From assembly GCA_944363655.1 (NCBI GenBank), contig CALVUU010000058.1:1-15253 (forward strand): a DNA stretch of 15,253 bases. The letters run 5' to 3'. The position numbers and the translations under genes were made by a program. Of the stretch, positions 1,176 to 15,253 are shown piece by piece. Position 1 is the first letter of the stretch. Each line of letters starts with the position of its first letter. The stretch is from an uncultured Bacilli bacterium. GTDB lineage: Bacteria; Bacillota_I; Bacilli_A; RF39; UBA660. Below the pieces are notes generated by a model. The model saw nothing but the letters and a program-made list of their open reading frames with translations. It was not told where the DNA came from and did not search any database.

Positions 1176-1193
1176 TAAATAAAAAATGGATTA

Positions 1194-1560: not shown

Positions 1561-1608
1561 TTTCTAGAGTTGATGTTATAAAATAAGAAAAAACTACTAT
1601 AATTTATA

Positions 1609-1648
1609 TGGTTTACAATTAGTGATTTATATGATAAAATGTAAACCA
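1609..1648 (+). promoter_or_regulatory. Promoter framed by a perfect inverted repeat (likely autoregulatory operator)
   Basis: The arms TGGTTTACA (1609-1617) and TGTAAACCA (1640-1648) are perfect reverse complements separated by 22 nt. Inside them lies a sigma-A-like promoter: TTTACA (1612-1617), a 17-nt spacer, then TAAAAT (1635-1640). The left arm contains the -35 and the right arm begins at the last base of the -10. The downstream gene encodes an XRE DNA-binding domain, so binding of its product here would block RNA polymerase. The operator role is inferred. Confidence 0.7.
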
Positions 1649-1662
1649 AGAAGGTGATAACT

Positions 1663-3196: not shown

Positions 3197-3217
3197 AGTA
3201 TAATCTTATCCAATTTT
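3183..3217. terminator. Bidirectional intrinsic terminator between convergent genes
   Basis: The arms AAAATTGGATAA (3185-3196) and TTATCCAATTTT (3206-3217) form a perfect 12-bp stem with a 9-nt loop, with an A-run on the left and a T-run on the right. It ends both the PIN-like gene (+) and the XRE gene (-). The left arm is also the last codons of the PIN-like gene. Confidence 0.75.
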
Positions 3218-3219
3218 AA

Positions 3220-3468
3220 TTATTTATCTTCTTCATCAAGTGGTTCAAACAAAACTCTTATATCTATCCCAAGTACTTTAGCAAATGTCCATATAGTTCC
3301 TAAACTAAATGTTTGTAAATAATTAGGACTTTCGATATTCATTATAAAACCTTCACTGTAATTACAAAGCATCGCAAATTTTGTTATAGTTAGATGCTTT
3401 AATTTACGTTGTTTTTTTAGATTTTGTCCAACAAGATAATATATGTAGTTTTCATCATTTTTATCCAT
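3220..3468 (-). CDS. Small XRE-family HTH regulator
   Basis: An 82-aa protein that is almost entirely one helix-turn-helix domain (about residues 14-75). It starts VGQNLKKQRKLKHLTITKFA, has the recognition segment around SEGFIMNIESP, and ends with the FAKVLGIDIRVLFEP helix typical of Cro/CI-like repressors. The ATG at 3468 is preceded on the minus strand by AGGTGAT with good spacing. It is transcribed divergently from the surface-protein gene across about 100 nt that contain strong inverted repeats, so it probably represses itself and perhaps that gene. It converges on the PIN-like gene through a shared terminator. It could be a lone antitoxin or a cryptic phage or element regulator; no other element genes support either. 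Confidence 0.82.
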   Translation of the reverse strand: MDKNDENYIYYLVGQNLKKQRKLKHLTITKFAMLCNYSEGFIMNIESPNYLQTFSLGTIWTFAKVLGIDIRVLFEPLDEEDK

Positions 3469-3488
3469 AATTTTATCACCTGATTAAA

Positions 3489-3524
3489 TTTTCTCATTAA
3501 ACAAGTGAGAAAATTTCACTTGTT
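3489..3524. promoter_or_regulatory. Overlapping inverted repeats between divergent genes (candidate XRE operator)
   Basis: There are two overlapping palindromes. TTTTCTCA (3489-3496) pairs with TGAGAAAA (3506-3513) across 9 nt. AACAAGTGA (3500-3508) pairs with TCACTTGTT (3516-3524) across 7 nt. The two share bases, so they cannot both fold in one RNA, which fits alternative or adjacent protein sites better than a hairpin. They lie upstream of both the XRE gene (-) and the surface-protein gene (+). Assignment to the XRE protein is inference. Confidence 0.6.
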
Positions 3525-3536
3525 CAGTGAATTTTG

Positions 3537-3545
3537 TGGTATAAT
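3537..3545 (+). promoter_or_regulatory. Extended -10 promoter of the surface-protein gene
   Basis: TGG followed by a perfect TATAAT (3540-3545) forms an extended -10 element 24 nt before the start codon. No clear -35 is seen at normal spacing; the inverted repeats occupy that region. Confidence 0.6.
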
Positions 3546-3568
3546 CAATTTAGGATGGAGGAAATTTA

Positions 3569-4732
3569 ATGAAAAAAAATATTTTGTTATTAGGAGTGGT
3601 TGTGGTTATATTTTCTATATTTTTTATATGTCTTAGTTCAAATAATGACAAAGCTATAATTGAAAATACAAATAGTTCTAATTTAAATTTTAATTCTAAT
3701 ACTTTAACCATGATGTATGAAACAGAAGAGAATAGTGGAGAATACCAAGTTAGTAATGATAATGCGTGGCCACAGGAGGGATATGTTTTTAACGAAAGAT
3801 TATCAAGTTGTGAAAACGGAAGTACACTTACTTGGGATGATGAAAATAAGAAAGTATTATTACAAACTAATACTTCAGATAAATGTTATATTTATTTTGA
3901 TAAAGAACCCGATATAGTATATTTAGCAGATTATATAAAGAAAAACGTTTATACAAGTGATGGAGTAAATGATTTATATTATCATGATGGAGTGGGAACA
4001 TATGGATATCTTGAAGCTGGCGATAATAGCTATCGTTATAGCGGAGCAAATCCAAATAATTATGTGTGCTTTGGCAGTGATGCAGCAGCATGTCCGAATG
4101 ACTATTTGTATAGAATCATAGGAGTGTTTGGAGATCAAGTTAAGTTGATAAAATCTACGAGTATTGGAAGTTATGCTTGGGATGCAGATAACGTAAATAC
4201 ATGGGATGGAACAACTAAACCAGATGTTTATTATTTATTAAATGATACATTTTATAATAATAAAACATACATAGAGGAACAATTGATAAGCAAAATATCT
4301 GTTCATGATTTTGAAGTTGGTGGAGTAAATTTTAATGATATTGGAACGGCTAAAGAAGTATATCAATTAGAAATTGAAAATCAAACTGGATATAAAGAAA
4401 GAATGCCAATAGGTTTAATGTATGTAAGTGATTATGGATATAGTGTTGATCCTAGCAAATGGAGCGAACCATTAATGTACGGCACTACCGATTATGATAT
4501 AAATTACGGGATAAACAATTGGCTATATTTAGGGAACCAATATGAGTGGCTAATAACTCGCATATCAGATATTAATAGTGCTTTTCATATTCCGAATTTA
4601 TTTAATGGAAGTTTAGGAGGCGGTTATTCTGCTGATCAAAAAAGTGCAATACGTCCTGTCTTCTATCTAAAATCTAATGTAGAATTAGTCAGAGGAACAG
4701 GTACTTCAAGTGATCCTTACCGCATTGCCTAA
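3569..4732 (+). CDS. Membrane-anchored or secreted surface protein of an uncultured-Bacilli family
   Basis: A 387-aa protein. Residues 1-24 (MKKN then a hydrophobic stretch) form a signal or anchor. FFIC is not a good lipobox, so a plain transmembrane anchor or signal peptide is more likely than a lipoprotein. A low-complexity Asn/Ser linker follows (about 30-60). A small module at 65-112 has WPQEGYVFNERLSSCENG and KCYIYFDKE with a likely Cys81-Cys106 pair. A larger domain (about 117-387) contains DGVNDLYYHDG, SGANPNNYVCFGS (Cys167, Cys175), YRIIGVFGDQVKLIKS, IGLMYVSDYGY, NWLYLGNQYEWLITR, IRPVFYLKS and the ending GTGTSSDPYRI. From memory, this domain recurs in many copies in uncultured Mollicutes-like gut Bacilli, sometimes behind prepilin-type N-termini. 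Function unknown; cell-surface adhesion or recognition is a guess. GGAGG 3557-3561 sets the start. Confidence 0.8.
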   Translation: MKKNILLLGVVVVIFSIFFICLSSNNDKAIIENTNSSNLNFNSNTLTMMYETEENSGEYQVSNDNAWPQEGYVFNERLSSCENGSTLTWDDENKKVLLQTNTSDKCYIYFDKEPDIVYLADYIKKNVYTSDGVNDLYYHDGVGTYGYLEAGDNSYRYSGANPNNYVCFGSDAAACPNDYLYRIIGVFGDQVKLIKSTSIGSYAWDADNVNTWDGTTKPDVYYLLNDTFYNNKTYIEEQLISKISVHDFEVGGVNFNDIGTAKEVYQLEIENQTGYKERMPIGLMYVSDYGYSVDPSKWSEPLMYGTTDYDINYGINNWLYLGNQYEWLITRISDINSAFHIPNLFNGSLGGGYSADQKSAIRPVFYLKSNVELVRGTGTSSDPYRIA

Positions 4733-4756
4733 AAAAAATTAAACATACTCGACTTA

Positions 4757-4782
4757 GAACGACAAATTCGTCGCTCTTTTTT
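4757..4782 (+). terminator. Intrinsic terminator of the surface-protein gene
   Basis: GA-A-CGAC (4757-4763) pairs with GTCG-C-TC (4770-4776) with one mismatch and a 6-nt loop, followed by six T (4777-4782). It also lies immediately upstream of the spoIIGA -10 element, so it insulates the sporulation block from the island. Confidence 0.72.
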
Positions 4783-4791
4783 GTGTATAAT
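4767..4791 (+). promoter_or_regulatory. Putative spoIIGA-sigE promoter with 0A-box-like site
   Basis: TATAAT at 4786-4791 lies 15 nt before the spoIIGA start. No -35 is recognisable at 17 nt, as in B. subtilis spoIIG, where Spo0A-P activates a promoter with wrong spacing. TTCGTCG (4767-4773), read on the minus strand as CGACGAA, matches the 0A box TGNCGAA at all but the first base. It also forms part of the terminator stem, so the match may be accidental. Confidence 0.42.
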
Positions 4792-4806
4792 CATTTTGTG
4801 ATTAAT

Positions 4807-5610
4807 ATGAAAATATATTTAGATCTAGTATTTATACTTAATTTTATATATGATTTACTTTTAATGATGACTGTTGATATAACTCTAAAAAGGCACACAA
4901 AGTTAAGAAGACTAATATTTAGTTCTATCCTTGGGGCTTTATCTCTTATAATACTTTTTCTTCCCTGCGGAGAACTAATATTGTTTGTTTTTAAAATTAT
5001 TATAAGTGTTTTAATGATTCTTATTGCTTTTGGATATAAAAATATTAAATATTTTGGTACTAATATGATTTATTTATATATGTCTAGTGTAATACTCGGA
5101 GGTTTTTTATATTTTTTAAATATTGAATTTAGTTATAAAAGAGAAGGAATGATTTTTTATTTTGATGGATTAAGTGTTAATTATATACTTCTTTTAATTA
5201 TTGCTCCGATTATTTTGTTTTTATATGTGAGGGAACATAAAAAGTTTAAGAGTACATATAATTATAATTATAAAGTAAGTATTATATTTAAAAATGGTAA
5301 GTGTTTAGAATGTAATGGGTTTTTGGATACGGGAAATAAGTTAAAAGATCCTGTAACTAAAAAGTATATAATACTTGTTAATAAAAAGGTATTAATACCA
5401 TATATAAATATAAGAAGTCCTATATATGTACCATATAAAACTGTCGGTTATAATGGGTTAATAGAGTGTTTTAGTATTAGGTATATTAAAGTAATGAATC
5501 AAGTATTTAAAAATTATATGGTAGGTATTATACCTGAGAAAATAAATTTAAATGGTAGTGATTGTTTACTTAATTATAAATTAATGGAGGATATATGTTT
5601 AGAAAAATAA
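4807..5610 (+). CDS. spoIIGA: SpoIIGA, sigma-E precursor-processing aspartic protease
   Basis: SpoIIGA is the septum-membrane protease that activates pro-sigma-E in the mother cell. This 267-aa protein starts MKIYLDLVFILNFIYD, the family's typical N-terminus. It has about five hydrophobic segments up to residue 142 and a cytosolic C-terminal domain with the aspartic-protease motif GFLDTGN (Asp174). It is somewhat shorter than the roughly 309-aa B. subtilis protein. ATG 4807 was chosen over an in-frame GTG at 4783 because it begins exactly at the conserved N-terminus. The only Shine-Dalgarno match is a weak GTGAT at 4798-4802, so translation is probably inefficient. The gene overlaps sigE by 16 nt, the expected protease-substrate operon. 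Confidence 0.93.
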   Translation: MKIYLDLVFILNFIYDLLLMMTVDITLKRHTKLRRLIFSSILGALSLIILFLPCGELILFVFKIIISVLMILIAFGYKNIKYFGTNMIYLYMSSVILGGFLYFLNIEFSYKREGMIFYFDGLSVNYILLLIIAPIILFLYVREHKKFKSTYNYNYKVSIIFKNGKCLECNGFLDTGNKLKDPVTKKYIILVNKKVLIPYINIRSPIYVPYKTVGYNGLIECFSIRYIKVMNQVFKNYMVGIIPEKINLNGSDCLLNYKLMEDICLEK

Positions 5611-6275
5611 TAGAATATTTAAAACGTAAGTATAATGAAGTATTTTTTGTTGGAGCTACTGATAAACTTCCACCACCTTTAAGTAAGGAAGAAGAACTTG
5701 ATTATTTAATTAAAGCAAGACAAGGAGATAATGATGCAAGGAATAAACTTATTGAACATAATTTAAGATTAGTTGTATTTCTTGCTAAACGATATGAAAA
5801 TACAACATATGATATTGAAGATTTAGTAAGTATTGGTTCCATTGGTTTAATTAAAGGAATTAATACCTATAAGATAGATAAAAATATAAAACTGGCTACT
5901 TATGCATCACGTTGTATTAGTAATGAAATACTCATGTTTCTTCGGAAAAATAAGAGGAAAAGAAGTGAAGTTTCTTTAGATAGTGCTATAAATTTTGATA
6001 GTGAGGGTAATGAACTTCATTTAGAAGATATTCTTGGAACTGATGCAGAATTAGTACCTAAAGAGTATGAACGAAAAGTTGATAAAGAACTTTTAAATAA
6101 AGAAATTGCTTCATTAAGTCCCAGGGATAAAGAAATAATGACTCTTAGATATGGACTTAATAATACAATGGAATATACCCAAAAAGAAGTAGCAGAAATG
6201 TTAGGAATTAGTCAGTCTTATATTTCTAGGATTGAAAAAAAAGTGGTAAGAAAATTAAGCCAATTGATGCATTAA
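5595..6275 (+). CDS. sigE: RNA polymerase sigma-E (mother-cell sporulation sigma factor), made as a pro-protein
   Basis: A 226-aa sigma-70 family protein clearly of the sigma-E type: KLPPPLSKEEE, then region 2 (about 50-120, NLRLVVFLAKRYENTTYDIEDLVSIG and IKLATYASRCISNEILMFLR), the SEVSLD/GNELHLEDILGTD linker, and region 4 (about 165-222, TQKEVAEMLGISQSYISRIEKK). The basic, amphipathic N-terminus MFRKIIEYLKRKYNEVFF is the pro-sequence. By alignment with B. subtilis EVYY/IGG, cleavage by SpoIIGA is expected after Phe18, giving a pro-sequence about 9 residues shorter than the 27 of B. subtilis. GGAGG at 5586-5590 serves the ATG inside the end of spoIIGA. Its stop codon overlaps that of the convergent HTH gene. 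Glu54 is the Glu of the KLIEHNL motif. Confidence 0.95.
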   Translation: MFRKIIEYLKRKYNEVFFVGATDKLPPPLSKEEELDYLIKARQGDNDARNKLIEHNLRLVVFLAKRYENTTYDIEDLVSIGSIGLIKGINTYKIDKNIKLATYASRCISNEILMFLRKNKRKRSEVSLDSAINFDSEGNELHLEDILGTDAELVPKEYERKVDKELLNKEIASLSPRDKEIMTLRYGLNNTMEYTQKEVAEMLGISQSYISRIEKKVVRKLSQLMH

Positions 6276-6703
6276 TTTTTCTTACCTAATATTTTATCCA
6301 TTGAAGTATCATAATTTTTACATATGGAATAAAGAAAATCTGTTTTTATTAAAACTTTCCCTGTTTCATATGCGGAATAAGTTGAAGATGTTGTATTAAG
6401 AAATAAAAAGATATCTTTTTGAACTAAGTTGCGTTCTTTGCGAAATTCTTTTAGATTTTGTCCAATAACTTTAGCATCTAAATCAATAACCCGATAAGAA
6501 GTTTTATTATTGGTAAGACCTGTCATATAATCAACACTTACTTTATAATAATCACTAAGTTTGTTAAGACGGCGTAAAGGTATAGTATCTTTACCTGTTT
6601 CCCAACCGGCGTAGGTTGAACGGTCAACTTCTAAAGTTTTTGCTACATCATTTTGCGTTAGATTTTTTTCTTCTCTTATTTCTTTAAGTCTATCAAATTT
6701 CAT
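6272..6703 (-). CDS. Tandem-HTH XRE-family regulator
   Basis: A 143-aa protein with two complete XRE helix-turn-helix domains: residues about 5-61 (LKEIREEKNLTQNDVAKTLEVDRSTYAGWETGK) and about 80-137 (LKEFRKERNLVQKDIFLFLNTTSSTYSAYETGK). The halves resemble each other, so the protein looks like an internal duplication that could bind two operator half-sites as one chain. The ATG at 6703 follows a GGTGG site on the minus strand. It lies between sigE and sigG in reverse orientation, with its stop codon overlapping that of sigE by 3 nt, so it interrupts the order known from B. subtilis. It is divergent from the 165-aa gene, and the shared region holds repeated GAAAA half-sites. Its target genes are unknown; sporulation control is only suggested by location. 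Confidence 0.85.
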   Translation of the reverse strand: MKFDRLKEIREEKNLTQNDVAKTLEVDRSTYAGWETGKDTIPLRRLNKLSDYYKVSVDYMTGLTNNKTSYRVIDLDAKVIGQNLKEFRKERNLVQKDIFLFLNTTSSTYSAYETGKVLIKTDFLYSICKNYDTSMDKILGKKN

Positions 6704-6719
6704 GTTACCACCGCATTTA

Positions 6720-6782
6720 TTTTCTCATTAATAATATTATTTTCAGGAAAACGTGGGAAAATACGAGAAAATGTGTTATTAT
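6720..6782. promoter_or_regulatory. Divergent regulatory region with three 10-bp-phased GAAAA half-sites
   Basis: GGAAAA (ending 6751), GGGAAAA (ending 6761) and GAGAAAA (ending 6771) repeat at exactly 10-nt steps. On the far side TTTTCTCATTAA (6720-6731) provides the inverted GAGAAAA half-site. An extended -10 element TGT-TATTAT (6774-6782) for the + strand gene lies directly after the last repeat. The 12-mer TTTTCTCATTAA is also found upstream of the other XRE gene (3489-3500). Operator function is inferred. Confidence 0.5.
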
Positions 6783-6807
6783 TAACTATAAGTAAAGGAT
6801 GTGTATA

Positions 6808-7305
6808 ATGATAAAAATTACAGATAAAGTTGAAACCATTAATATTAATGAAAATGAATTAATGTATTATGATAAGTATTATGAAGGATACAAAATTATA
6901 CCAATATTTTCTTATTTTGTAATAGAATTAGTAATCGTTGTAGAAGAAAATTATCTAAGAGAAATAATTAAGATAAATAGTGGGGGAGAAGAAATATTAG
7001 ATAGATTTGTTAGTAAAGAGGAATTAAAAGATACAATTGTCTTAAGTCCTGGTGATTTTAAAAAATTTAAAAGATTATATAATAATTTAAGAAATAAAAA
7101 AGATTATCGTCAGGAAGCTATAATAAATGCTTATGCAGAGTTACTTAGTTATGAATATTATCAAGCAAGTGTTTTAGAAGATATACCAAGTATAACTAAA
7201 GAAGAATTATTTGAAGATTTAGATGGATATAATTATAGCGATTATAGGGAAGAGATATTAAAGAAAAGTCAGGAAATACTTAAAAAACATTATAAAGTTA
7301 AATAA
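6808..7305 (+). CDS. Hypothetical acidic 165-aa protein between sigE and sigG
   Basis: I do not recognise the family. The protein has no signal peptide or clear membrane segment. An N-terminal half (about 1-75) looks beta-rich, with a hydrophobic strand IIPIFSYFVIELVIVV. A C-terminal half is rich in charged residues and Tyr and looks helical, with RLYNNLRNKKDYRQEA, AYAELLSYEYY and a Lys-rich end. ATG 6808 was preferred over ATG 6799 because AAAGGA (6794-6799) is a good ribosome binding site 8 nt upstream of 6808 and overlaps the other ATG. It is divergent from the tandem-HTH gene and followed by the sigG leader after 14 nt. Its position suggests a sporulation-linked or HTH-regulated protein, but nothing in the sequence proves it. 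Confidence 0.75.
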   Translation: MIKITDKVETININENELMYYDKYYEGYKIIPIFSYFVIELVIVVEENYLREIIKINSGGEEILDRFVSKEELKDTIVLSPGDFKKFKRLYNNLRNKKDYRQEAIINAYAELLSYEYYQASVLEDIPSITKEELFEDLDGYNYSDYREEILKKSQEILKKHYKVK

Positions 7306-7319
7306 TTTGTATAAAAAAT

Positions 7320-7353
7320 ACTCCTTTTAAACAAAATATTGTTTGAAAGGAGT
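7320..7353 (+). promoter_or_regulatory. sigG leader hairpin sequestering the Shine-Dalgarno
   Basis: ACTCCTTTTAAACAA (7320-7334) pairs with TTGTTTGAAAGGAGT (7339-7353) over 15 bp with a single G-U pair and a 4-nt loop. The AAAGGAG ribosome binding site of sigG (7346-7352) lies wholly in the right arm, 6 nt before ATG 7359. In RNA this would hide the site. Only four T follow, so it is a poor terminator, though some attenuation is possible. A leader hairpin with this effect has been described for B. subtilis sigG (from memory). Confidence 0.75.
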
Positions 7354-7358
7354 TTTAA

Positions 7359-8135
7359 ATGTCTAAATATAAAGTAGATATCACTGGTATAAATACCAGT
7401 GATATTAAAGTTTTAAGCAATGAAGAGATGACGTATTTATTTGTGAAATTTAAGGATGGAGATATAAGTGCGAAAGAAGAACTTATTAATGGTAATTTGA
7501 AATTAGTTTTAAGTATACTTCGATCATTTAATCGTAGTGATATTAACATGGATGATTTATTTCAAGTTGGGGTAATTGGGTTAATTAAGGCAATTGATAA
7601 TTTTGATTTATCTTATGGTTTTAAATTTAGTACTTATGCCGTTCATTTAATAATTGGAGAGATAAAAAGATATATAAGGGATAATACAGCAATGCGGGTT
7701 AGTAGAAGTATTAAGGATATGGCTTATCAAATTATTAAGTTTAAAGATGAGTATTTAAGTGAACACGGATATGAACCAAATACTCAATTAATAGCTAGTA
7801 CTCTTGGTATAGAAGAATATCAAATTGCTTTTGCTCTTGATGCTTTGAAAGACCCTACAAGTATTTTTGAACCAATTTATAACGATGGGGGAGATACAAT
7901 ATATCTTTTTGATCAAATTGCTGATGTTAAAGATAAAAATAGTGATAAAGATATGCTTATATCTTTAAGAAGAGCATTGTTAAAAATAAAAGAAAGAGAA
8001 AAATCGATATTATTAGAAAGATTTATTGTGGGTAAAACACAGATGGAAATTGCTCAAGAATTAGGTATTAGTCAAGCACAAGTATCAAGAATTGAAAAAA
8101 GTGCAATAGAAAATGTAAGGAAACTTATTAAGTAA
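7359..8135 (+). CDS. sigG: RNA polymerase sigma-G (forespore sporulation sigma factor)
   Basis: A 258-aa sigma factor, the same length class as B. subtilis sigma-G (260). It opens with the sigma-G-specific N-terminus SKYKVDITGINTSDIKVL. It has region 2 (NGNLKLVLSILRSF, MDDLFQVGVIGLIKAIDNFDL, FKFSTYAVHLIIGEIKRYIRDN), region 3 (RVSRSIKDMAY) and the FEPIYNDGGDTIYLFDQI block. Region 4 (GKTQMEIAQELGISQAQVSRIEKSA) ends it. Asn44 in LINGN is the position that, as I recall, makes sigma-G sensitive to the anti-sigma factor Gin/CsfB, while sigma-E has Glu there. Strong AAAGGAG and ATG are present, but both the ribosome binding site and codons 7-16 lie in hairpins. It is followed after 24 nt by the ylmC-like gene. 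Confidence 0.95.
   Translation: MSKYKVDITGINTSDIKVLSNEEMTYLFVKFKDGDISAKEELINGNLKLVLSILRSFNRSDINMDDLFQVGVIGLIKAIDNFDLSYGFKFSTYAVHLIIGEIKRYIRDNTAMRVSRSIKDMAYQIIKFKDEYLSEHGYEPNTQLIASTLGIEEYQIAFALDALKDPTSIFEPIYNDGGDTIYLFDQIADVKDKNSDKDMLISLRRALLKIKEREKSILLERFIVGKTQMEIAQELGISQAQVSRIEKSAIENVRKLIK
7378..7405 (+). promoter_or_regulatory. Perfect hairpin inside the sigG 5' coding region
   Basis: ATATCACTGGTAT (7378-7390) and ATACCAGTGATAT (7393-7405) are perfect reverse complements around AA, giving a 12-bp stem with a 4-nt loop in RNA. It covers codons 7-16 (DITGINTSDI) and begins 20 nt into the gene, just past an initiating ribosome. With the leader hairpin it makes two stacked stem-loops across the initiation region. 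Confidence 0.7.
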
Positions 8136-8159
8136 ACATATAATTTAGTGGTGAATTAT

Positions 8160-8381
8160 ATGTATTTAAGTGAATTACAAAATAAAGATATTATTAGTAC
8201 TAAAACAGGAGTTAATTTAGGAAGAATTGTCGATGTTGAAGTAAGTATGGATGGGCATATTATTAGTTTTATTGCTGAAGAGAGGAAATTTTTTCGCAAA
8301 GTTTTAAAAAATAGTGAAATTAACTTTACTTTTGGGGATATTGCAAAGATTGGTAAGGACGTAATACTAGTAAATAAGTAA
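8160..8381 (+). CDS. ylmC: YlmC/YmxH-family PRC-barrel protein
   Basis: A 73-aa protein that is one PRC-barrel-like domain: YLSELQNKDIISTKTGVNLGRIVDVEV, then beta strands, ending in FGDIAKIGKDVILVNK. This matches the small YlmC/YmxH sporulation-associated family, one member of which lies just downstream of sigG in B. subtilis. The molecular role is not known; PRC barrels usually act in protein or RNA contacts. ATG 8160 was chosen because GGTGA (8150-8154) fits as a ribosome binding site and the family starts here; GTG codons at 8148 and 8151 lie in that site. A TATAAT at 8139-8144 could give an extra promoter, but its transcript would start at the ribosome binding site. Likely read with sigG. 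Confidence 0.85.
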   Translation: MYLSELQNKDIISTKTGVNLGRIVDVEVSMDGHIISFIAEERKFFRKVLKNSEINFTFGDIAKIGKDVILVNK

Positions 8382-8402
8382 AAAATATGATATATTATTG
8401 GC

Positions 8403-8882
8403 ATGAGAAAAAAAAGTTTAATTGTTGCTACATTTTTATTAATAATTGATCAGATTATCAAGATTGTAATTGATAAAACAATGATGTATGGGGAAATAAA
8501 AACAGTAATTTCCAACTTTTTTTATGTAACTAAGGTTTATAATGATGGAGCAGCATGGAGTGTTTTACAAGGTAATGTAATATTTTTAGTTATCATTGCT
8601 ATTTTCTCGATGATATTTTTGTTGAAATATGAAAAATATTTTGAAAATAAATATCGTAATATTATGGCATTTGGATTAGTATATGGAGGGTTATGTGGTA
8701 ACTTACTTGATCGCATTATGTATGGACATGTAATCGATTATTTTAAAATATTATTTGGAAGTTATAGTTTTCCAGTATTTAATTTAGCAGATATAGCTAT
8801 TGTATGTGGTTTTATTTTAATAATATATAGTGTAATAAAGGGTGAAGATAAATATGGAGTTAGTAGTAGAAAAAGAAAATGA
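8403..8882 (+). CDS. lspA: Lipoprotein signal peptidase (signal peptidase II)
   Basis: LspA cuts the signal peptide from diacylglyceryl-modified prolipoproteins in the membrane. This 159-aa protein has four hydrophobic segments and all family motifs: the N-terminal IDQIIK, YNDGAAWS (47-53), GGLCGNLLDR (Asp103), HVIDYF (Asp112) and FNLAD (Asp130). Asp112 and Asp130 match the catalytic pair. The C-terminal tail is short and basic. There is no convincing ribosome binding site upstream of ATG 8403, so expression may be low or depend on readthrough from ylmC 21 nt upstream. The end overlaps the rluD-type gene by 29 nt. The lspA-rluD order matches many Bacillota. Confidence 0.95.
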   Translation: MRKKSLIVATFLLIIDQIIKIVIDKTMMYGEIKTVISNFFYVTKVYNDGAAWSVLQGNVIFLVIIAIFSMIFLLKYEKYFENKYRNIMAFGLVYGGLCGNLLDRIMYGHVIDYFKILFGSYSFPVFNLADIAIVCGFILIIYSVIKGEDKYGVSSRKRK

Positions 8883-9744
8883 AAGATTAGATAAATATAT
8901 AGCAAGTGTTACAGATTATAGTAGAGAATTAGTAACTAAGATGATTCAAGATGATTATATTTTAGTAAATAATTTAAAAGAAAAAGGAAGTTATAAAGTA
9001 AAAATTGGAGATATTATATCTATTAAAGAGGGGTATGTAAAAGAGTTATGTGTTACTCCTAAAAAGATGGATTTAGATATTGTTTATGAAGATGAATACT
9101 TAATGGTTATTAATAAGCCTAGTGGCTTAACAGTACATCCCGGCAATGGTAATAGTGATAATACTTTAGTAAATGGACTTAAGTATTATACTAATAATTT
9201 AAGTAATGTTGGAGGGTTAATTCGTCCTGGTATTGTCCATCGCCTTGATAAAGATACTTCAGGATTAATGCTTGTTGCAAAAAATGATTTATGTCATACT
9301 TTACTTGCTGATGATTTTAAAAATAAAAGGATTCATCGGGAATATGTGGCTTTGCTCGATGGAGTATTTCCACAGAATTCGGCAACTATTGATGCTCCTG
9401 TTGGAAGAAGTAAAGATAATTTTGAGAAAATGGCAGTTGTTGCTAATGGAAAGAGAGCAATAACCCATTTAAGTGTTATAAAAAAATATAAAGATTATAC
9501 TTTAGTTAGACTTATATTAGAAACAGGAAGAACTCATCAAATAAGAGTACATTTATCTTATATAGGTTATCCGGTTCATAATGATCCGGTTTATAATAAA
9601 AAATCTAGTGATGAATTTGGACAATTTTTACACTCAGAGTATTTAAAATTTACTCATCCAATAACAAGAGAGATTTTAGAATTTAGAGCAGATTTACCTA
9701 AAGAATTTAAAAGTTTTTTAGAAACTTTGGAAGAAAGTAATTAA
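8854..9744 (+). CDS. rluD: RluD-family 23S rRNA pseudouridine synthase (YlyB-like)
   Basis: A 296-aa enzyme of the RluA/RluD family that isomerises uridines in rRNA. An N-terminal S4 RNA-binding domain (about 9-60, ERLDKYIASVTDYSRELVTKMI) is followed by the catalytic domain with INKPSGLTVHPG and the active-site motif RPGIVHRLDKDTSG (Asp132). The LETGRTHQIRVHL signature follows later. ATG 8854 was chosen because AAGGGTGA just upstream is the ribosome binding site; the longer frame from GTG 8842 starts inside it. It overlaps lspA by 29 nt and converges on the TspO-like gene with a 27-nt overlap, leaving no visible terminator between them. The exact rRNA target cannot be told from sequence. Confidence 0.93.
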   Translation: MELVVEKENERLDKYIASVTDYSRELVTKMIQDDYILVNNLKEKGSYKVKIGDIISIKEGYVKELCVTPKKMDLDIVYEDEYLMVINKPSGLTVHPGNGNSDNTLVNGLKYYTNNLSNVGGLIRPGIVHRLDKDTSGLMLVAKNDLCHTLLADDFKNKRIHREYVALLDGVFPQNSATIDAPVGRSKDNFEKMAVVANGKRAITHLSVIKKYKDYTLVRLILETGRTHQIRVHLSYIGYPVHNDPVYNKKSSDEFGQFLHSEYLKFTHPITREILEFRADLPKEFKSFLETLEESN

Positions 9745-10047
9745 AATATATAGAAAAGAGTAAAAAATCATTAAAAAATATGGAATACTTGCTAAATTAT
9801 AAGTTCCAAATAATTTTTGAAAATCTTTAATTAGTAAAAAGGAAAATGATAAAAGAAAAGAAATAGCAATTAAACTAAATAATAGATTATAAAAATATCC
9901 AAAGAATATAGCAACTGCGATATTTAATATATAATTAGTTAATAGAAGAAATAAAGTATTTTCATTTAAAATGTTATATTCAATAATTTTAAATATGGGA
10001 ATTAATAGTAAAGCGATACAAATAATGTAAAATAGAAAAAATAGCAA
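9718..10047 (-). CDS. Short TspO/MBR-like (tryptophan-rich sensory protein-like) membrane protein
   Basis: A 109-aa, very hydrophobic protein with about four membrane segments. The order of ILNIAVAIFFGYF, then a hydrophobic helix ending LLIKDFQKL, then LASIPYFLMIFYSFLYIL resembles helices 3-5 of TspO/MBR proteins, where LN...W..FFG, a long helix and a PYLLW..FA..LN segment occur. The Trp residues of the family are absent and helix 1 is missing, so the assignment is tentative. The start is placed at TTG 10047 because AAAGAGGTG lies 6 nt upstream on the minus strand. The longer frame (TTG 10098) has no ribosome binding site. Convergent with rluD, sharing 27 nt, and divergent from the rhomboid gene. 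Confidence 0.55.
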   Translation of the reverse strand: MLFFLFYIICIALLLIPIFKIIEYNILNENTLFLLLTNYILNIAVAIFFGYFYNLLFSLIAISFLLSFSFLLIKDFQKLFGTYNLASIPYFLMIFYSFLYILITFFQSF

Positions 10048-10108
10048 ATTATTCACCTCTTTACTAAATATATGATTTATTGTAAAATAAAAGAACAAGG
10101 AGATGTAT

Positions 10109-11269
10109 ATGACCTCAGTAATGATACGTAAAAATGATCAAATAATGATGTGCTTGGTGCATTATTTTGTAACTAAAGAAAATTATTCTCCGATACATGT
10201 CCAGGGAGTAAAAGATGAAATTTGGTTAGAAAATTTAAATGGACCATATCGCGTTATTAGAATTAGTTGTAATAGGGTAATTAATGAAGAACAATATAAA
10301 TTTGATATATTTAAAATGCAACATATAATTAAACAAATAAAAAGGAAAACTTTATCTTTAAAGATGAATGCTTTAAATATATGTTTAGATATGAGTGATA
10401 AATTAAAATATAATGATGCTGGTAATATTGAGACTATTAATGTTTCATCATTAAATGAAATTAGAAAAAATCCAGCGTTGCAAGAGATTTTTCCTAATTT
10501 AAAAAATGAATTAATTGAATCTAATGATGGAATAGAATTAATAATTAATGTAACTAATGATATTAATAAGAAGACAGAGAAAGAAAATAAATTATTTGCT
10601 AAAGTATTTTCTCCCAAAAAGATTATATTTACTAAATTAATTGTTTTAGCATGTATAATCATGTATTTAATTTTAGCTTTCTATAATAGTAATTTTCTTA
10701 ATTTTACTGCTAGTTCTTTAGCATTTTTGGGAGGGAATAATTTATCACTTGTTCAAAGTGGTGAAGTATGGCGCCTTATTACTAGTGCTTTTTTACATGT
10801 TGGACTTATTCATTTAGTTGTTAATATGTATTCACTGGCTATAATTGGGACGCAGGTTGAAACTTTTATTGGTAAATGGAAATTTTTATTAATTTATTTA
10901 ATTAGTGCTATTAGTGGTAATTTGTTATCTTTGGTATTTAATGAGGGTAATGTGGTTGCTGTTGGAGCAAGTGGAGCAATATTTGGTTTAATGGGATCTT
11001 TATTATATTTTGGATATCACTATCGTTTGTATTTAAGTGAGGCTATTAAAAATCAAATAATTCCTATTATTTTAATTAACTTATTGATTGGTTTTATGAT
11101 ACCAGGAATTGATAATATTGCTCATATCGGAGGACTTATTGGTGGATATCTTTCTTCAATGGCTTTTGGTATAGAAAATAAAAGTGAAAAACGGGATATG
11201 ATAAATGGTTGGGTTGTTTTAATCCTTTATCTTGTATTCTTGTGTTATATTGTATTTTTTGTTAAATAA
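10109..11269 (+). CDS. Rhomboid-family intramembrane serine protease with N-terminal cytosolic domain
   Basis: A 386-aa protein. Residues 1-170 form a soluble domain (VHYFVTKENYSP, RVIRISCNRV) resembling the N-terminal domain of GluP/YqgP-type rhomboids. The membrane part (about 175-385) has the rhomboid signatures: GEVWRLITSAFLHVGLIHLVVNMYSL, the catalytic GASGA with Ser288, and the catalytic His339 in NIAHIGGLIGGY. These form the Ser-His dyad that cleaves membrane proteins within the bilayer. Unlike B. subtilis GluP (about 507 aa) it has no C-terminal TPR domain. ATG 10109 was chosen because AAGGAG (10097-10102) is 6 nt upstream; ATG 10103 overlaps the end of that site. It ends at a bidirectional terminator shared with lexA. 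Confidence 0.92.
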   Translation: MTSVMIRKNDQIMMCLVHYFVTKENYSPIHVQGVKDEIWLENLNGPYRVIRISCNRVINEEQYKFDIFKMQHIIKQIKRKTLSLKMNALNICLDMSDKLKYNDAGNIETINVSSLNEIRKNPALQEIFPNLKNELIESNDGIELIINVTNDINKKTEKENKLFAKVFSPKKIIFTKLIVLACIIMYLILAFYNSNFLNFTASSLAFLGGNNLSLVQSGEVWRLITSAFLHVGLIHLVVNMYSLAIIGTQVETFIGKWKFLLIYLISAISGNLLSLVFNEGNVVAVGASGAIFGLMGSLLYFGYHYRLYLSEAIKNQIIPIILINLLIGFMIPGIDNIAHIGGLIGGYLSSMAFGIENKSEKRDMINGWVVLILYLVFLCYIVFFVK

Positions 11270-11297
11270 AAAATGGTATCGTATGATATCATTTTTT
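11268..11297. terminator. Bidirectional intrinsic terminator between rhomboid gene and lexA
   Basis: AAAAAATGGTATC (11268-11280) pairs with GATATCATTTTTT (11285-11297) over 13 bp with one G-U pair and a GTAT loop. The A-run and T-run make it usable from both sides. It directly abuts both stop codons. Confidence 0.82.
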
Positions 11298-11918
11298 CTA
11301 TATTTTTCGATATAATCCAATGGCTTTTCCTAGTATTGTAACATTGGGAAATATTAGAGGATCCATTGTGTCATTTTCTGGTTGAAGTCTAATATGATCT
11401 TTTTCCTTATAAAATGTTTTAAGAGTTACTTCATTTTCTTCCGTCATAGCAACAACTATATCGCCATTTTTAGCATCATTTTGTCTTTTTACAATAACAT
11501 AGTCGTTATCATATATACCTTTGTTAATCATCGATTCTCCACTAACATGTAAAGTAAATACTTCACCGCTTTTAGGCATAAGTGATGCCGGCAAGTCAAA
11601 GTATTCATCAGGTTGTTCGATAGCGGTAATAGGATTACCAGCGGTAATTTTTCCAAGTAAAGGAACTTTTACGACATCTTCATTTTTTTCTAGATATTCA
11701 TTATCTACTAATAATTCAATTGTTCTAAACTTATTATTGGTTGATTTAATGTAACCATTTTTTTCTAAGTTTTTAACGTGAACAAATACTGTTGCAGGAC
11801 TATTAAGTCCAACTCCTGCACATATTTCTCTTATTGCTGGGGGATACCCATGCATTGCCATATACTTTTTTATGTAAGTTAAGATTTCTTCTTGTCTTGG
11901 TGTCAATTTTTTTTCCAT
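11298..11918 (-). CDS. lexA: LexA, SOS-response repressor
   Basis: A 206-aa LexA of typical Bacillota length. The winged-helix DNA-binding domain (about 1-70) has LTPRQEEILTYIKKYM, YPPAIREICAGVGLNSPATVFVHVKNLEKNGYI. The C-terminal S24 domain has the self-cleavage site Ala93-Gly94 in KITAGNP, catalytic Ser129 in VSGESMIN and Lys167 in VTLKTF. RecA on single-stranded DNA triggers self-cleavage and so derepression. GGAGG lies 5 nt before the ATG on the minus strand. Its promoter carries an SOS box next to the -35, so it should repress itself, as well as the divergent small membrane-protein gene. Confidence 0.96.
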   Translation of the reverse strand: MEKKLTPRQEEILTYIKKYMAMHGYPPAIREICAGVGLNSPATVFVHVKNLEKNGYIKSTNNKFRTIELLVDNEYLEKNEDVVKVPLLGKITAGNPITAIEQPDEYFDLPASLMPKSGEVFTLHVSGESMINKGIYDNDYVIVKRQNDAKNGDIVVAMTEENEVTLKTFYKEKDHIRLQPENDTMDPLIFPNVTILGKAIGLYRKI

Positions 11919-11935
11919 TTAATACCTCCATCATC

Positions 11936-11964
11936 ATTTTACAATACTTTATGTAAAAAGTCAA
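11936..11964 (-). promoter_or_regulatory. lexA promoter
   Basis: On the minus strand TTGACT (11959-11964) is followed by a 17-nt spacer and TAAAAT (11936-11941). The upstream SOS-like box overlaps the -35 by 3 nt. Confidence 0.75.
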
Positions 11965-11975
11965 ACATTTGTTTA
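11962..11975. promoter_or_regulatory. SOS (LexA) box 1, proximal to lexA
   Basis: CAAACATTTGTTTA matches the Bacillota SOS box CGAAC-N4-GTTCG at 7 of 10 fixed positions and is symmetrical in its core (AAAC-ATTT-GTTT). It covers the edge of the lexA -35. Confidence 0.6.
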
Positions 11976-11984
11976 ATTATGTGA

Positions 11985-12013
11985 TTGACACAAACAAATA
12001 TTCGTGTTAAATT
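11985..12013 (+). promoter_or_regulatory. Promoter of the lexA-divergent small membrane-protein gene
   Basis: A perfect TTGACA (11985-11990), a 17-nt spacer and TAAATT (12008-12013) preceded by TGT, an extended -10. The spacer is filled by SOS box 2, so LexA binding would block RNA polymerase. Confidence 0.78.
11991..12004. promoter_or_regulatory. SOS (LexA) box 2, within the small-gene promoter
   Basis: CAAACAAATATTCG matches CGAAC-N4-GTTCG at 8 of 10 fixed positions and begins immediately after the TTGACA -35. Its place between -35 and -10 is the usual position of a repressing operator. Confidence 0.72.
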
Positions 12014-12036
12014 GTATTCAGAAAGAAGAGGTAATT

Positions 12037-12177
12037 ATGATGAGTGTTTTAAAAAAGTATAGTGGAGTATTATTTTTTTATTTAGTGATTATAGGAATGA
12101 TTTTACTTATTAATGCCCGTTTTGCATCTTTAAATACGGATAATACTGATGTTGTTACTTATGCAATGAGTGATTAA
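12037..12177 (+). CDS. Small SOS-controlled single-pass membrane protein (YneA position)
   Basis: A 46-aa reading frame. A short N-terminus with Lys6-Lys7 leads into one hydrophobic segment (about residues 9-25, GVLFFYLVIIGMILLIN), then a 20-residue polar tail (about 27-46, RFASLNTDNTDVVTYAMSD), likely outside the cell. AGAGGT (12027-12032) gives a good ribosome binding site for ATG 12037 or the adjacent ATG 12040. The promoter carries an SOS box in its spacer, and lexA is divergent. In B. subtilis this place is held by yneA, an SOS cell-division inhibitor with one membrane helix and a LysM domain; here the LysM is absent. A division-delay role is inferred from regulation, location and topology only. 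Confidence 0.78.
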   Translation: MMSVLKKYSGVLFFYLVIIGMILLINARFASLNTDNTDVVTYAMSD

Positions 12178-12189
12178 CTTTGATGAATT

Positions 12190-12235
12190 TTGACAAGTTA
12201 TACTTCTAGATTTTAAAGACTTTGTATAGTATAAT
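12190..12235 (+). promoter_or_regulatory. Candidate promoter(s) of the glycosyltransferase gene
   Basis: A perfect TTGACA (12190-12195) is followed after 16 nt by TTTAAA (12212-12217). Separately, a perfect TATAAT (12230-12235) has no clear -35 and would give a leader of only about a dozen bases. Either could serve the gene starting at 12255. Confidence 0.4.
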
Positions 12236-12254
12236 TAAATTGGAGAAGATAATT

Positions 12255-13400
12255 ATGGGTAAAAAAATCTTAATTATTTATGCTCCGTATGGATCCGGGC
12301 ATAAATCAATAGCTGATAAAATAGGTAATTATTTTGAGGAAAGTAGTGATTTGGAAATAAAAATATTAGATGTTGCAAAATACTCTAATATTTTAGGTAA
12401 GGCTAGTATAAAATTATTTGATATGGTTACAAAACATAGTTTTCATAAAACATTTAGTTTTATTTATGATATCGCTGATAATAAGTTAGCTAGTTTAAGT
12501 CAATTGAAATTAGTAAAAAAATTATTTGATAATGAAAAATTGCGTAAAGAAATCGTTGATTTTAATCCGGATTTAACAATATCTACACATTTTTTTGGAG
12601 GTAATATTGTATCTTATTATAATAAAATAGGAATTACTAAATCACTTATTATGACTGTTATAACTGATTATGCTTCCCATAGTTATTGGTGTAAAGATCA
12701 TGAGAGTCAAGATGCTTTTATAGTGGCTAATGAAATAATGAAAAATGTTATGATTAAAAAAGGAATTGATAGTAGAAAAATATATCCTTTTGGACTGCCT
12801 TTTGATCGAAAAAAAATGGAAACAAGACTTAGTCCTGAAGAAACATATTTTAAATACGGTATTGATGCTACTAAAAAAACTTATCTCTTTTTTGGAGGTG
12901 GGGCGGCAGGATCGATGGCTAGTTTAGATTATTTAAAATTTTTAATAAGTGGTGATTTTCCTATTAATATTGTATTTATTAGTGGTAAAAATCAGAAATT
13001 AGAAGAAAAGGCAAGACGTTATGTTATGAAGAAAAAAGCTGATAATGTTAAAGTTTTAGGATTTACTAAAGATGTTTATAGTTTACTTAATATTAGTGAT
13101 GTAGTCATAAGTAAACCAGGAGGAGCAACTTTAACAGAATGTATTGATATGCGTGTACCTTTGATACTAATTCCTGGAAATGGGGGACCTGAAAAATATA
13201 ATGCTAAATATATATGTCGAAAAAAATATGGTTGTAAAGTTATAAATGCTTGGGGTTTAAAAAGAGCTGTTAAAAAAACAATAAAGAATGAAAAATTAGT
13301 GGTTAAATGGCGAGATAATATGCAAAAACATGATAAGAATGAATCTACTAAAAAAATACTTGAGTTAACAAATAAATTATTGAAAAATAAAAATAGTTAA
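12255..13400 (+). CDS. MGDG-synthase-like GT28 glycosyltransferase (diacylglycerol glucosyltransferase type)
   Basis: A 381-aa, two-domain GT-B enzyme, close in length to B. subtilis UgtP (382). The N-terminal MGDG_synth acceptor domain (about 1-170) starts KKILIIYAPYGSGHKSIADKI and contains VITDYASHSYW. The C-terminal GT28 donor domain (about 205-370) has YLFFGGGAAGSMAS, VLGFTKDVYSLLNISDVVISKPGGATLTE and the nucleotide-sugar motif LILIPGNGGPEKYNA. It probably transfers sugar from UDP-glucose to diacylglycerol on the inner membrane face to make glycolipids or lipoteichoic-acid anchors. The sugar, the linkage and whether it is processive cannot be read from sequence. GGAG at 12242-12245 supports ATG 12255; an upstream extension of the frame has no conserved start. 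There is no terminator before the tRNA. Confidence 0.88.
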   Translation: MGKKILIIYAPYGSGHKSIADKIGNYFEESSDLEIKILDVAKYSNILGKASIKLFDMVTKHSFHKTFSFIYDIADNKLASLSQLKLVKKLFDNEKLRKEIVDFNPDLTISTHFFGGNIVSYYNKIGITKSLIMTVITDYASHSYWCKDHESQDAFIVANEIMKNVMIKKGIDSRKIYPFGLPFDRKKMETRLSPEETYFKYGIDATKKTYLFFGGGAAGSMASLDYLKFLISGDFPINIVFISGKNQKLEEKARRYVMKKKADNVKVLGFTKDVYSLLNISDVVISKPGGATLTECIDMRVPLILIPGNGGPEKYNAKYICRKKYGCKVINAWGLKRAVKKTIKNEKLVVKWRDNMQKHDKNESTKKILELTNKLLKNKNS

Positions 13401-13401
13401 A

Positions 13402-13430
13402 TTGTAATTGGAAATAGAATGTGGTAATAT
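13402..13430 (+). promoter_or_regulatory. tRNA-Arg promoter
   Basis: TTGTAA (13402-13407), a 17-nt spacer, and TAATAT (13425-13430) preceded by TGG (extended -10). Transcription would start 1-2 nt before the mature tRNA, leaving almost no 5' leader. Confidence 0.7.
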
Positions 13431-13438
13431 ATTTATGG

Positions 13439-13514
13439 GTCCTCGTAGTTTAATGGATAAAACAAGCCCCTCCTAAGGGTTAGAGTGATGGTTCGATTCC
13501 ATTCGGGGACGCCA
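13439..13514 (+). tRNA. tRNA-Arg (anticodon CCT)
   Basis: A complete 76-nt cloverleaf. The acceptor stem GTCCTCG/CGGGGAC has one T-G pair. The D stem is GTTT/AAAC. The anticodon stem AGCCC/GGGTT has loop CTCCTAA and anticodon CCT at 13472-13474. The T arm has GGTTCGATTCC, followed by discriminator G and encoded CCA. It reads AGG arginine codons. Confidence 0.96.
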
Positions 13515-13524
13515 TTTAACCAAT

Positions 13525-13551
13525 AAAGTCCGAACTTTCGGACTTTTTATT
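13525..13551 (+). terminator. tRNA-Arg terminator
   Basis: AAAGTCCGAA (13525-13534) and TTCGGACTTT (13537-13546) form a 10-bp stem followed by a T-rich tract, 10 nt after the CCA end. Confidence 0.85.
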
Positions 13552-13609
13552 TTGTCAAACACACAATTTTTTTATTGCTTAAAATATTTGGCATTTATAT
13601 TTAGACAAT

Positions 13610-13643
13610 AAAATCTTGTGAAATTGCAAGATTTTTATTTTTT
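13610..13643 (+). terminator. Second intrinsic terminator upstream of the FIST operon
   Basis: AAAATCTTG (13610-13618) and CAAGATTTT (13627-13635) form a 9-bp stem with an 8-nt loop, then T-ATTTTTTT. No gene lies between it and the tRNA terminator; the 13552-13609 interval holds no recognisable gene. Confidence 0.7.
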
Positions 13644-13674
13644 TGTCAAGTTTAGTAAATTGATTGTAAAACAA

Positions 13675-13704
13675 TTGACTGTGGGAAAAATTATGAATTA
13701 TAAT
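13675..13704 (+). promoter_or_regulatory. Promoter of the FIST-aldehyde dehydrogenase operon
   Basis: TTGACT (13675-13680), an 18-nt spacer and perfect TATAAT (13699-13704). This is among the better sigma-A-type promoters in the window, giving a leader of about 48 nt. Confidence 0.75.
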
Positions 13705-13708
13705 TAAG

Positions 13709-13733
13709 TTAGGCTAGAGTGCTAGCAACCTAA
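13709..13733 (+). promoter_or_regulatory. Stem-loop at the 5' end of the FIST mRNA leader
   Basis: TTAG-GCTAG (13709-13717) pairs with CTAGC (13722-13726) and, after an AAC bulge, CTAA (13730-13733), with an AGTG loop. It begins at or within a few bases of the predicted transcription start, where stem-loops often slow RNA decay. No ligand-binding RNA family is recognised. Confidence 0.45.
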
Positions 13734-13758
13734 TGTTGGGTTTTAAGGAGGGAAAGAA

Positions 13759-14931
13759 ATGTTAAAAACCAAAGTTGGTTATAGTGAAAATGTTGATGCA
13801 TTTTCTTCAGGTGTTGAAACAGCTTCTATGGCAAGTAAAGTAGAAAATCCCCAAGTTGGATTGTTCTTTACAAGCTGCGTTCAAGATCAAGCAGAACTTA
13901 TGAAAGGTGCTAAAAGTGTTTTGGGTGATGTGCCAATCATCGGATGTACTTCATCAGCTGCACTTTGTACGCAAGATGGATATCTAAATAAAGAAACAGG
14001 ATATTCAGGAATGATGTTATTCGGTGGAGATGTCGAAGTCGTTACAGCAGGAAGTAAGAAAACAGAAGAATCTCCAAGAGAAATTGGTGCACGTATTGCA
14101 AGAGAAGCAATAGCTAAAAGAAAAGGTGAAGATAAAGAACCAGATTTCTTCTTTATGAGTGCAAGTCCTGCTAATGAAGAAGAATATTTAAAAGGTATAC
14201 AAGATGTTATTGGTAATATTCCAGTTTTTGGTGGTTCGGCTGCCGATAATACAGTTGAAGGTAAATGGAGTTTACTTAATGATGGGGAAGTATTTGCTGA
14301 TGGTTGTGTTATAGCAATATTTTATACAAATGGTAAAATGGCTAATATTTATACGGGAGCTTATCATGAAACGGAAAATGTTGGTATTATTACTAAGATT
14401 GAAGGTAGTAGAACTTTAGTAGAAATCGACCATGAACCAGCCCTTAAGAAATATGCTGAATGGACTAATCAAAAAGTGGAAGACTTAATGGGTGGAAATT
14501 TGCTTACAGCAACAATTTGTGCACCACTTGGAGTAAAAGATCCAATTGGTAAAGTTATAGCTGTTCGTCATCCAATGGCAGGAAATGAAGATTATTCCAT
14601 GAATATTGGAGCAGATCTTGCTTTAAATACAGCGGTAATTCAACTTACTAATACTCCGGAAGGAATATTAAAGGCTAATGCTGAAACTATCGAAAAATTA
14701 AATAATTTAATGGGTGAAGAAGTTGAAAGTTATTTCTTAGTTCATTGCGGAGGACGACGTTTAGGTTTGGCACTTTCTAATATTGAAGATAAGATTTATC
14801 CTGAAGTTAAGAAGGCGATACCTGATAAAGAATTTTTAATGGTATTTACATTCGGAGAATATGGACAAGGGGACCACTCATCTAATACAGTTGGTGGCTT
14901 ATCACTTTCATATACAGCATTTGGAAAGTAA
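13759..14931 (+). CDS. FIST-domain (FIST_N + FIST_C) protein
   Basis: A 390-aa protein with FIST_N (about 25-215: GLFFTSCVQDQAELMKG, VPIIGCTSSAALCT, FFFMSASPANEEEYLKGI, IPVFGGSAADN). FIST_C follows (about 220-375: LVEIDHEPALKKYAEW, ending GGLSLSYTAFG). FIST domains are thought to bind small ligands such as amino acids in signalling proteins; here the domain pair stands alone with no kinase, GGDEF or methyl-accepting module. There is no signal peptide or membrane helix, so it is cytosolic. A very strong AAGGAGG (13745-13751), a good promoter, a structured leader and less extreme AT codon use than its neighbours suggest high expression. It is followed after 26 nt without a terminator by an aldehyde dehydrogenase gene, so the two are probably an operon; the link may be metabolic. 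Confidence 0.87.
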   Translation: MLKTKVGYSENVDAFSSGVETASMASKVENPQVGLFFTSCVQDQAELMKGAKSVLGDVPIIGCTSSAALCTQDGYLNKETGYSGMMLFGGDVEVVTAGSKKTEESPREIGARIAREAIAKRKGEDKEPDFFFMSASPANEEEYLKGIQDVIGNIPVFGGSAADNTVEGKWSLLNDGEVFADGCVIAIFYTNGKMANIYTGAYHETENVGIITKIEGSRTLVEIDHEPALKKYAEWTNQKVEDLMGGNLLTATICAPLGVKDPIGKVIAVRHPMAGNEDYSMNIGADLALNTAVIQLTNTPEGILKANAETIEKLNNLMGEEVESYFLVHCGGRRLGLALSNIEDKIYPEVKKAIPDKEFLMVFTFGEYGQGDHSSNTVGGLSLSYTAFGK

Positions 14932-14957
14932 AAATATAAGAATAAAAAGGAGAAAAA

Positions 14958-15253
14958 ATGAAAAGTTTAATAGGAAATAGTTGGAGAGATTCAAGTGATG
15001 GTAAAGTAATTAATGTTATGAATCCTGCGACAAATGAACTGGTAGATACGGTTCCAAGTTTAACAAAGGAAGATGTTGAAGAAGCAATTCTATATGCTCA
15101 CAATCACCAAAAAGAGTGGGAAGCGCTATCAGTAGTTGAAAGATGTGTTATACTAACAAAATTCGCTGCATTAGTGGAAGAAAACAAAGATGAACTTGCT
15201 AAACTTTTATCTGATGAAACAGGAAAACCAATTAAAGAAGCATATAATGAAAT
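14958..15253 (+). CDS. NAD(P)-dependent aldehyde dehydrogenase family protein, N-terminal part (runs off window)
   Basis: The frame is open from ATG 14958 to the window end and encodes 98 residues plus two bases. KSLIGNSWRDSSDGKVINVMNPATNELVDTVP is followed by EDVEEAILYAHNHQKEWEALSVVERCVILTKFAALVEENKDELAKLLSDETGKPIKEA. This is the typical N-terminal NAD-binding part of the ALDH superfamily (succinate-semialdehyde, lactaldehyde or GapN-like). The catalytic Cys and Glu are beyond the window, so the subfamily is open. AAGGAG (14947-14952) lies 5 nt before the ATG. It follows the FIST gene without a terminator. Confidence 0.93.
   Translation, partial: MKSLIGNSWRDSSDGKVINVMNPATNELVDTVPSLTKEDVEEAILYAHNHQKEWEALSVVERCVILTKFAALVEENKDELAKLLSDETGKPIKEAYNE

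Follow-up and report, generated by a model that had tools for sequence, protein, structure and literature searches.

The window analysed here, positions 1 to 15,253 (15,253 nucleotides, nt) of contig CALVUU010000058.1 of an uncultured Bacilli bacterium (order RF39; assembly GCA_944363655.1), contains a lexA repressor gene and, divergent from it across a gap of 118 nt, a frame of 46 codons whose product, a small peptide with a single predicted transmembrane (TM) helix, is the subject of this study (Table 1). The lexA product scores 223.6 bits against TIGR00498, for which the cut-off is 110.95, and the peptide frame starts at an ATG, with an alternative start at 12040. The original prediction, made from the letters of the window, had described a perfect -35, an extended -10, a ribosome binding site (RBS) and a LexA-type box filling the promoter spacer of the peptide gene, as well as a second box at the -35 of lexA, and all of these were recovered. 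Each box agrees with a LexA-box consensus at 11 of its 13 scored positions. Since promoter matches of equal quality are as frequent in shuffled sequences (four promoter-like matches versus a shuffle mean of 4.8, which is chance frequency), the case for the promoter and boxes rests on conservation. The intergenic region across them is almost invariant in 12 aligned sequences, in which TTGACA and most box positions do not vary at all.

Table 1. Features of the lexA-peptide locus, in window coordinates, and phage or prophage homologues of the peptide, in the coordinates of their own loci (E-values from a host-only profile, Z = one million; aa, amino acids)
Feature	Position	Strand	Remarks
lexA repressor gene	11298-11918	-	TIGR00498, Peptidase_S24 and LexA_DNA_bind matches
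lexA promoter, TTGACT-17-TAAAAT	11936-11964	-	-35 at 11964-11959, -10 at 11941-11936
LexA-type box CAAACATTTGTTTA	11962-11975		3-nt overlap with lexA -35
Peptide promoter, TTGACA, 17-nt spacer, TG-extended -10 TAAATT	11985-12013	+	promoter scan; -35 at 11985-11990, -10 at 12008-12013
LexA-type box CAAACAAATATTCG	11991-12004		entirely within peptide promoter spacer
RBS (Shine-Dalgarno-like) AGAAGAGG	12024-12031	+	5/6 match to AGGAGG under the rule used to pick frames
Peptide gene, 46 aa, single TM	12037-12177	+	stop codon included; predicted N-in/C-out
MGDG/UgtP-like glycosyltransferase gene	12255-13400	+	77 nt 3' of peptide gene
Homologue in L213	6046-6201		E 1.9e-6
Homologue in L211	282-446		E 3.3e-10
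Homologue in L215	10575-10724		E 1.7e-11
Homologue in L216	14908-15084		E 1.2e-9
Homologue in L221	3609-3767		E 3.9e-13

A single-sequence search of about 5.8 billion proteins found 36 members of the family, and a search with a profile (A1) listed 111 proteins, 110 of them with E < 0.01, the window peptide being included in both counts. Twelve homologue loci lie in named genome contigs (ten from uncultured Bacilli, one from an uncultured bacterium and one from an uncultured Erysipelotrichaceae), although L012 and L002 are two halves of one locus in one metagenome-assembled genome, broken by a contig end. In all ten loci with both genes whole (L001, L003-L011), lexA is divergent and the peptide start lies 116-133 nt away. 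Over 29 aligned codons in 11 sequences (55 pairs), the pooled pS was 0.498 versus a pN of 0.151, and the comparison of the window with each relative gave dN/dS values of 0.08 to 0.46 in nine of ten cases, the tenth being saturated at synonymous sites. Because of these homologues and this signature of purifying selection, we regard the frame as a real gene.

Among 385 genomes of the order, profile A1 matches 78 (E up to 0.001) and a more diverse profile, A3, matches 159 (E up to 0.01), the weak A3 matches including chance ones, as judged by long or interrupted frames; lexA was found in 342 (E up to 1e-30). The lexA upstream regions were taken for part of the lexA-bearing genomes and pooled with the earlier loci; 121 loci offered 350 nt or more of upstream sequence. 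This pool is biased in that many loci were picked for holding the peptide. A short single-TM frame was picked by rule in 109 of these, one of which (L083) is unrelated, so that the divergent peptide occurs in 108, and three further loci (L086, L094 and L104) have versions of 30-34 aa. The shortest products (30 aa in L094, L104 and L231, 34 aa in L086) are nearly the helix alone with hardly any outer tail, and L231 retains the box at -48. A fairer subset is provided by the 40 listed lexA matches L073-L112, chosen since their genomes had escaped profile A1. Of these, 28 had the frame by rule, three the short form, and five a copy at another place in the genome or separated from lexA by an inserted gene; in four none was found. 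Of 13 more lexA loci read in the order, one offered too little sequence; among the remaining 12, a frame of this kind was seen in ten (weakly in one, which starts with TTG) but not in L196 and L209. A stricter rule (ATG, Shine-Dalgarno sequence and hydrophobic helix) was met in 100 of the 121 real upstreams versus one of 2420 shuffles and none of the 121 reverse strands. For the most diverged members, kinship rests more on position and design than on sequence. Where the original prediction spoke of an SOS effector in this lineage, the family is found through an order and, as described below, in phages. In 11 lexA loci of the class from outside the order draw (lexA 46-49% identical), no profile match was obtained, the best E being 0.24. 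Elsewhere in the class, L184, L194 and L201, also from outside the order draw, have another kind of frame divergent from lexA, about 57 aa long and with a hydrophobic helix, and behind it a short soluble frame that we take to resemble YnzC.

The best intergenic box reaches at least 11/13 in 107 of 109 loci versus 1.7% of shuffles, and a second one at least 10/13 in 108 of 109 versus 1.2%, both counts taking in the unrelated L083. The box nearest the peptide start (at least 10/13) sits 43-52 nt before it in 102 of the 108 relatives, so that both the frame and its box show the conservation that the original prediction had implied. In 15 of 15 relatives, recA also has a box of 11-12/13 within 250 nt upstream, a count made without a shuffle baseline. 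The strongest test comes from five genomes in which the peptide gene is parted from lexA, either by an inserted gene (L224, where it encodes a CmpB-like protein, and L225), by a distance of about 8 and 12 kilobases (kb; L219 and L220) or by location on another contig (L222). As L219 and L220 are 87% identical over their shared stretch, and L224 and L225 85%, these represent three events. In all five, a box of 11-12/13 persists at -47 or -48, and because it stays with the gene after the separation, it belongs to the peptide gene and not only to lexA. LexA control of the peptide gene, as first proposed, is therefore supported by sequence. In L078 and L081, lexA is divergent from a gene for a membrane protein, which presumably resembles SpoVAC, and the SOS peptide lies about 8-12 kb off with its box retained. 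A further box-like element, CGATATAATGTTCG, which holds the -10 TATAAT, is seen 30-32 nt before the start in L101, L103, L123, L133, L139, L144, L148, L149, L224, L225 and L231.

AlphaFold2 models the window peptide as one helix over residues 2-44 (predicted template modelling score 0.47), with mean per-residue confidence (pLDDT) of 96 and 91 over residues 11-30 and of 62 and 53 in the tail. Since the N-terminal flank carries more net positive charge than the C-terminal one in 94 of the 108 relatives (means of +2.1 vs -0.5), a single-TM, N-in/C-out topology with an extracellular C-terminus is predicted. Charged residues are absent from the TM core of the window peptide, and in relatives the sequence continues for a median of 21 residues beyond the 19-residue hydrophobic core. 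The most conserved positions are G10, Y15 and R28, with N33, L32 and N26 less so; the helix has R28, L32 and N33 at its outer end. The peptide found no match in PHROGs or PADLOC, none in NCBIfam up to E 0.1 and none above the cut-off in Pfam (best 14.9 bits vs 25), nor did any LysM domain of Pfam or NCBIfam match within the thresholds applied. The family is thus a lexA-linked one without a model in the Pfam, NCBIfam, PHROGs and PADLOC libraries searched, and the earlier description of a membrane peptide in the place of yneA and lacking LysM is borne out by the one helix, the charge bias and the position.

Two of the order-wide matches (L116 and L126) lie in prophage-like stretches away from lexA. 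Following them gave homologues on viral contigs (L211, and L212/L213, one peptide on two contigs), wider regions L215 and L216, and also L221, whose genome (G231) holds a lexA-linked copy as well. In genome G044, the fetched stretch around lexA (L125) has no adjoining peptide and the sole peptide match is in a prophage-like region (L126/L215). In four of the five phage elements, the peptide gene is downstream of repressor-family genes and ahead of replication or recombination genes, whereas in L211 it sits at the contig edge. In L213 the peptide comes immediately after a small repressor-family helix-turn-helix (HTH) gene and is followed by Erf-like, exonuclease, SSB and DnaD-like genes. The order in L215 is two repressor-family genes, a 143-aa frame, the peptide, and then genes for a primosomal-type protein, DnaB and Erf. 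In L216 the peptide is preceded by a repressor-family gene as well as small frames, and the genes for Erf, terminase and portal lie farther on. In L221 the genes before the peptide encode an M78 peptidase, a repressor of the HTH type and a small HTH protein (slightly below its Pfam cut-off), and those after it DnaB, ERF and SSB. Scans of 281 to 1500 nt upstream revealed no box above 10/13. The elements are related to one another as mosaics: L215 and L221 have 2.1 kb beside the peptide in common at 87% identity, L216 and L221 have 1.0 kb at 77%, and shorter stretches are common to L211 and L213. The best host matches of the phage peptides are spread over different host clades; since the elements share DNA, a single capture followed by spread would suffice, and captures may be few.

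The peptide shares with the lexA-linked inhibitors YneA, SosA, ChiZ and DivS its adjacency to lexA (in the window, and in the 108 loci plus the three short versions), its putative LexA control and a single TM with a predicted extracellular C-terminus. According to PMC13396833, YneA of Bacillus subtilis lies beside lexA, is under SOS control and has one TM, which binds TM7 of FtsW, and its C-terminus is outside. The window peptide has the same position and general design; however, it does not possess the LysM of YneA and ChiZ, which YneA needs in order to inhibit, having about 20 residues outside the helix core, and its identification as YneA was rejected for want of that domain. SosA of Staphylococcus aureus is described as a small, lexA-divergent, SOS-induced single-TM protein with an extracellular C-terminus and without LysM; its conservation is strongest, and its residues essential, just outside the membrane, and its turnover is tied to CtpA (PMC6851548). 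Compared by description, the window peptide resembles it in being lexA-divergent with a single TM, in lacking LysM and in the conservation of the outer segment close to the membrane, and differs in length (46 vs 77 aa), the outer part being shorter. The original prediction had drawn a parallel with SidA and DidA of Caulobacter. It fits for SidA, a 29-aa SOS-induced membrane division inhibitor of C. crescentus acting on FtsW and likewise very small, though from another phylum and again compared by description; it fails for its companion DidA (71 aa), which is induced independently of SOS (both as outlined in PMC4211646). A closer analogue than either Caulobacter peptide is SosA, which the original prediction did not mention. 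Small phage or prophage proteins tied to a host division block are also on record, namely lambda Kil, described as acting via FtsZ assembly, and DicB of the Qin prophage (PMC3961180, PMC6832061); no indication of homology to a host SOS gene was seen for either, in contrast to the phage peptides described here, which do match a host family.

The gene, its box, its topology, its occurrence through the order and its phage copies are supported by the sequences compared, and we consider it probable that the peptide is a LexA-repressed minimal SOS effector, N-in/C-out, that delays septation and has been borrowed by phages. In undamaged cells, LexA on the spacer box would block the strong peptide promoter, and after DNA damage the self-cleavage of LexA with the help of RecA would open both divergent promoters. 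The peptide would then span the membrane with one helix, its short basic N-terminus inside and about 20 residues exposed on the outside. Through its helix and the outer segment nearest the membrane (approximately L-N-x-R-F-x-x-L-N) it would bind a membrane protein of the divisome, for which FtsW, the septal peptidoglycan synthase, or its complex is the likeliest candidate. Septation would be delayed until the peptide is removed, perhaps by a CtpA-type protease; relatives carry CtpA-family genes, besides two to four ftsW-family matches each. We infer LexA binding and induction in vivo, the division block, its target, the proteolysis and the benefit to phages, the middle steps from YneA, SosA and SidA. 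Phages would have acquired the peptide on at least one occasion, leaving the LexA box behind and placing the gene ahead of replication genes, where it plausibly halts host division during lytic growth, and the position of these copies near early replication genes adds weight to a division delay. We provisionally class the peptide with the lexA-linked membrane inhibitors of division in the SOS response, as a minimal variant shared with phages. A broader proposal, to which we give slightly less than even chances, is that a single ancestral SOS peptide of about 30-55 residues, free of LysM, serves the whole order as division brake and was captured at least once by temperate phages of the order, which dropped its LexA box and set it ahead of their replication genes; host checkpoint and phage takeover would then direct one and the same protein at one septal target.

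Several observations weigh against this interpretation. The TM of YneA alone localises without inhibiting, LysM being required (PMC13396833), so that a peptide without LysM must act differently. Conservation is not confined to one face of the helix (permutation p of 0.08, 0.20 and 0.47 for three ranges). Among the fetched loci, L083, L084, L085, L090 and L125 have lexA but showed no lexA-linked or relocated lexA-type peptide, and L196 and L209 likewise. As to the phage elements, they are interrelated and hence not independent witnesses, and the peptide frame of L215 overlaps the end of the 143-aa frame by 74 nt.

The short downstream gap (77 nt), in which no terminator-like site was found, could suggest that the peptide regulates another envelope protein, such as the lipid glycosyltransferase encoded there, another SEDS protein or a protease, and so governs envelope growth and not septation. 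The multiple ftsW-family matches per relative would also allow for this. However, in a rough motif census of 109 loci the downstream neighbour varies among clades (a glycosyltransferase in 30, a transketolase-like gene in 39, another gene or none in reach in 40), whereas linkage to lexA, or the box, is the constant. Since the neighbour changes in other clades, the glycosyltransferase is probably not a functional partner of the peptide, and we hold envelope regulation to be unlikely. Somewhat less likely again is an SOS-induced depolarising or pore-forming peptide that slows metabolism, of the TisB and DinQ type, even though a small, hydrophobic, single-helix product under a LexA-type box would suit it. 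TisB-like type I toxins are paired with an antisense RNA antitoxin; a single promoter-like site on the minus strand (12357-12328, 9/12), at chance level, would read antisense across the peptide gene, and the Rfam scan of the window matched tRNA only. Furthermore, the uncharged TM core, the linkage to lexA through much of the order and the purifying selection speak against it, as do the phage copies beside early replication genes, where a loss of energy would presumably be costly. Finally, the frame is short, lies 5' of another gene and has an in-frame GTG upstream of its ATG, at 12004, as might a regulatory leader, or a spurious frame, that does not act through a peptide; such a reading is very improbable, being already contradicted by the excess of synonymous over nonsynonymous differences, and the conserved G10, Y15 and R28 and the phage homologues away from lexA also count against it.

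If the favoured reading of a septation-delaying SOS peptide is correct, the family would provide a minimal natural inhibitor of septal wall synthesis in about a hundred diverged versions, including natural tail-less and phage forms. Comparison could then test which parts other than the membrane helix such an inhibitor requires, a question still debated for YneA and SosA. The present data also supply phage homologues of what would be a host SOS checkpoint gene.

Elsewhere in the window, a 46-aa frame (139-279) is almost a copy of the C-terminus of the adjacent PDC-S02-like protein (288-1175), a partial duplication. At 1654-3196, a protein with HTH and peptidase-like parts matches the RmrA models of PADLOC (E 6e-47) and is followed by a 176-aa frame that has no PADLOC match and looks PIN-like by eye. 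The region 4783-8381 contains SpoIIGA-, SigE-, SigG- and YlmC/YmxH-like genes, several of them below curated cut-offs, and judging by these matches the lineage keeps sporulation regulators.
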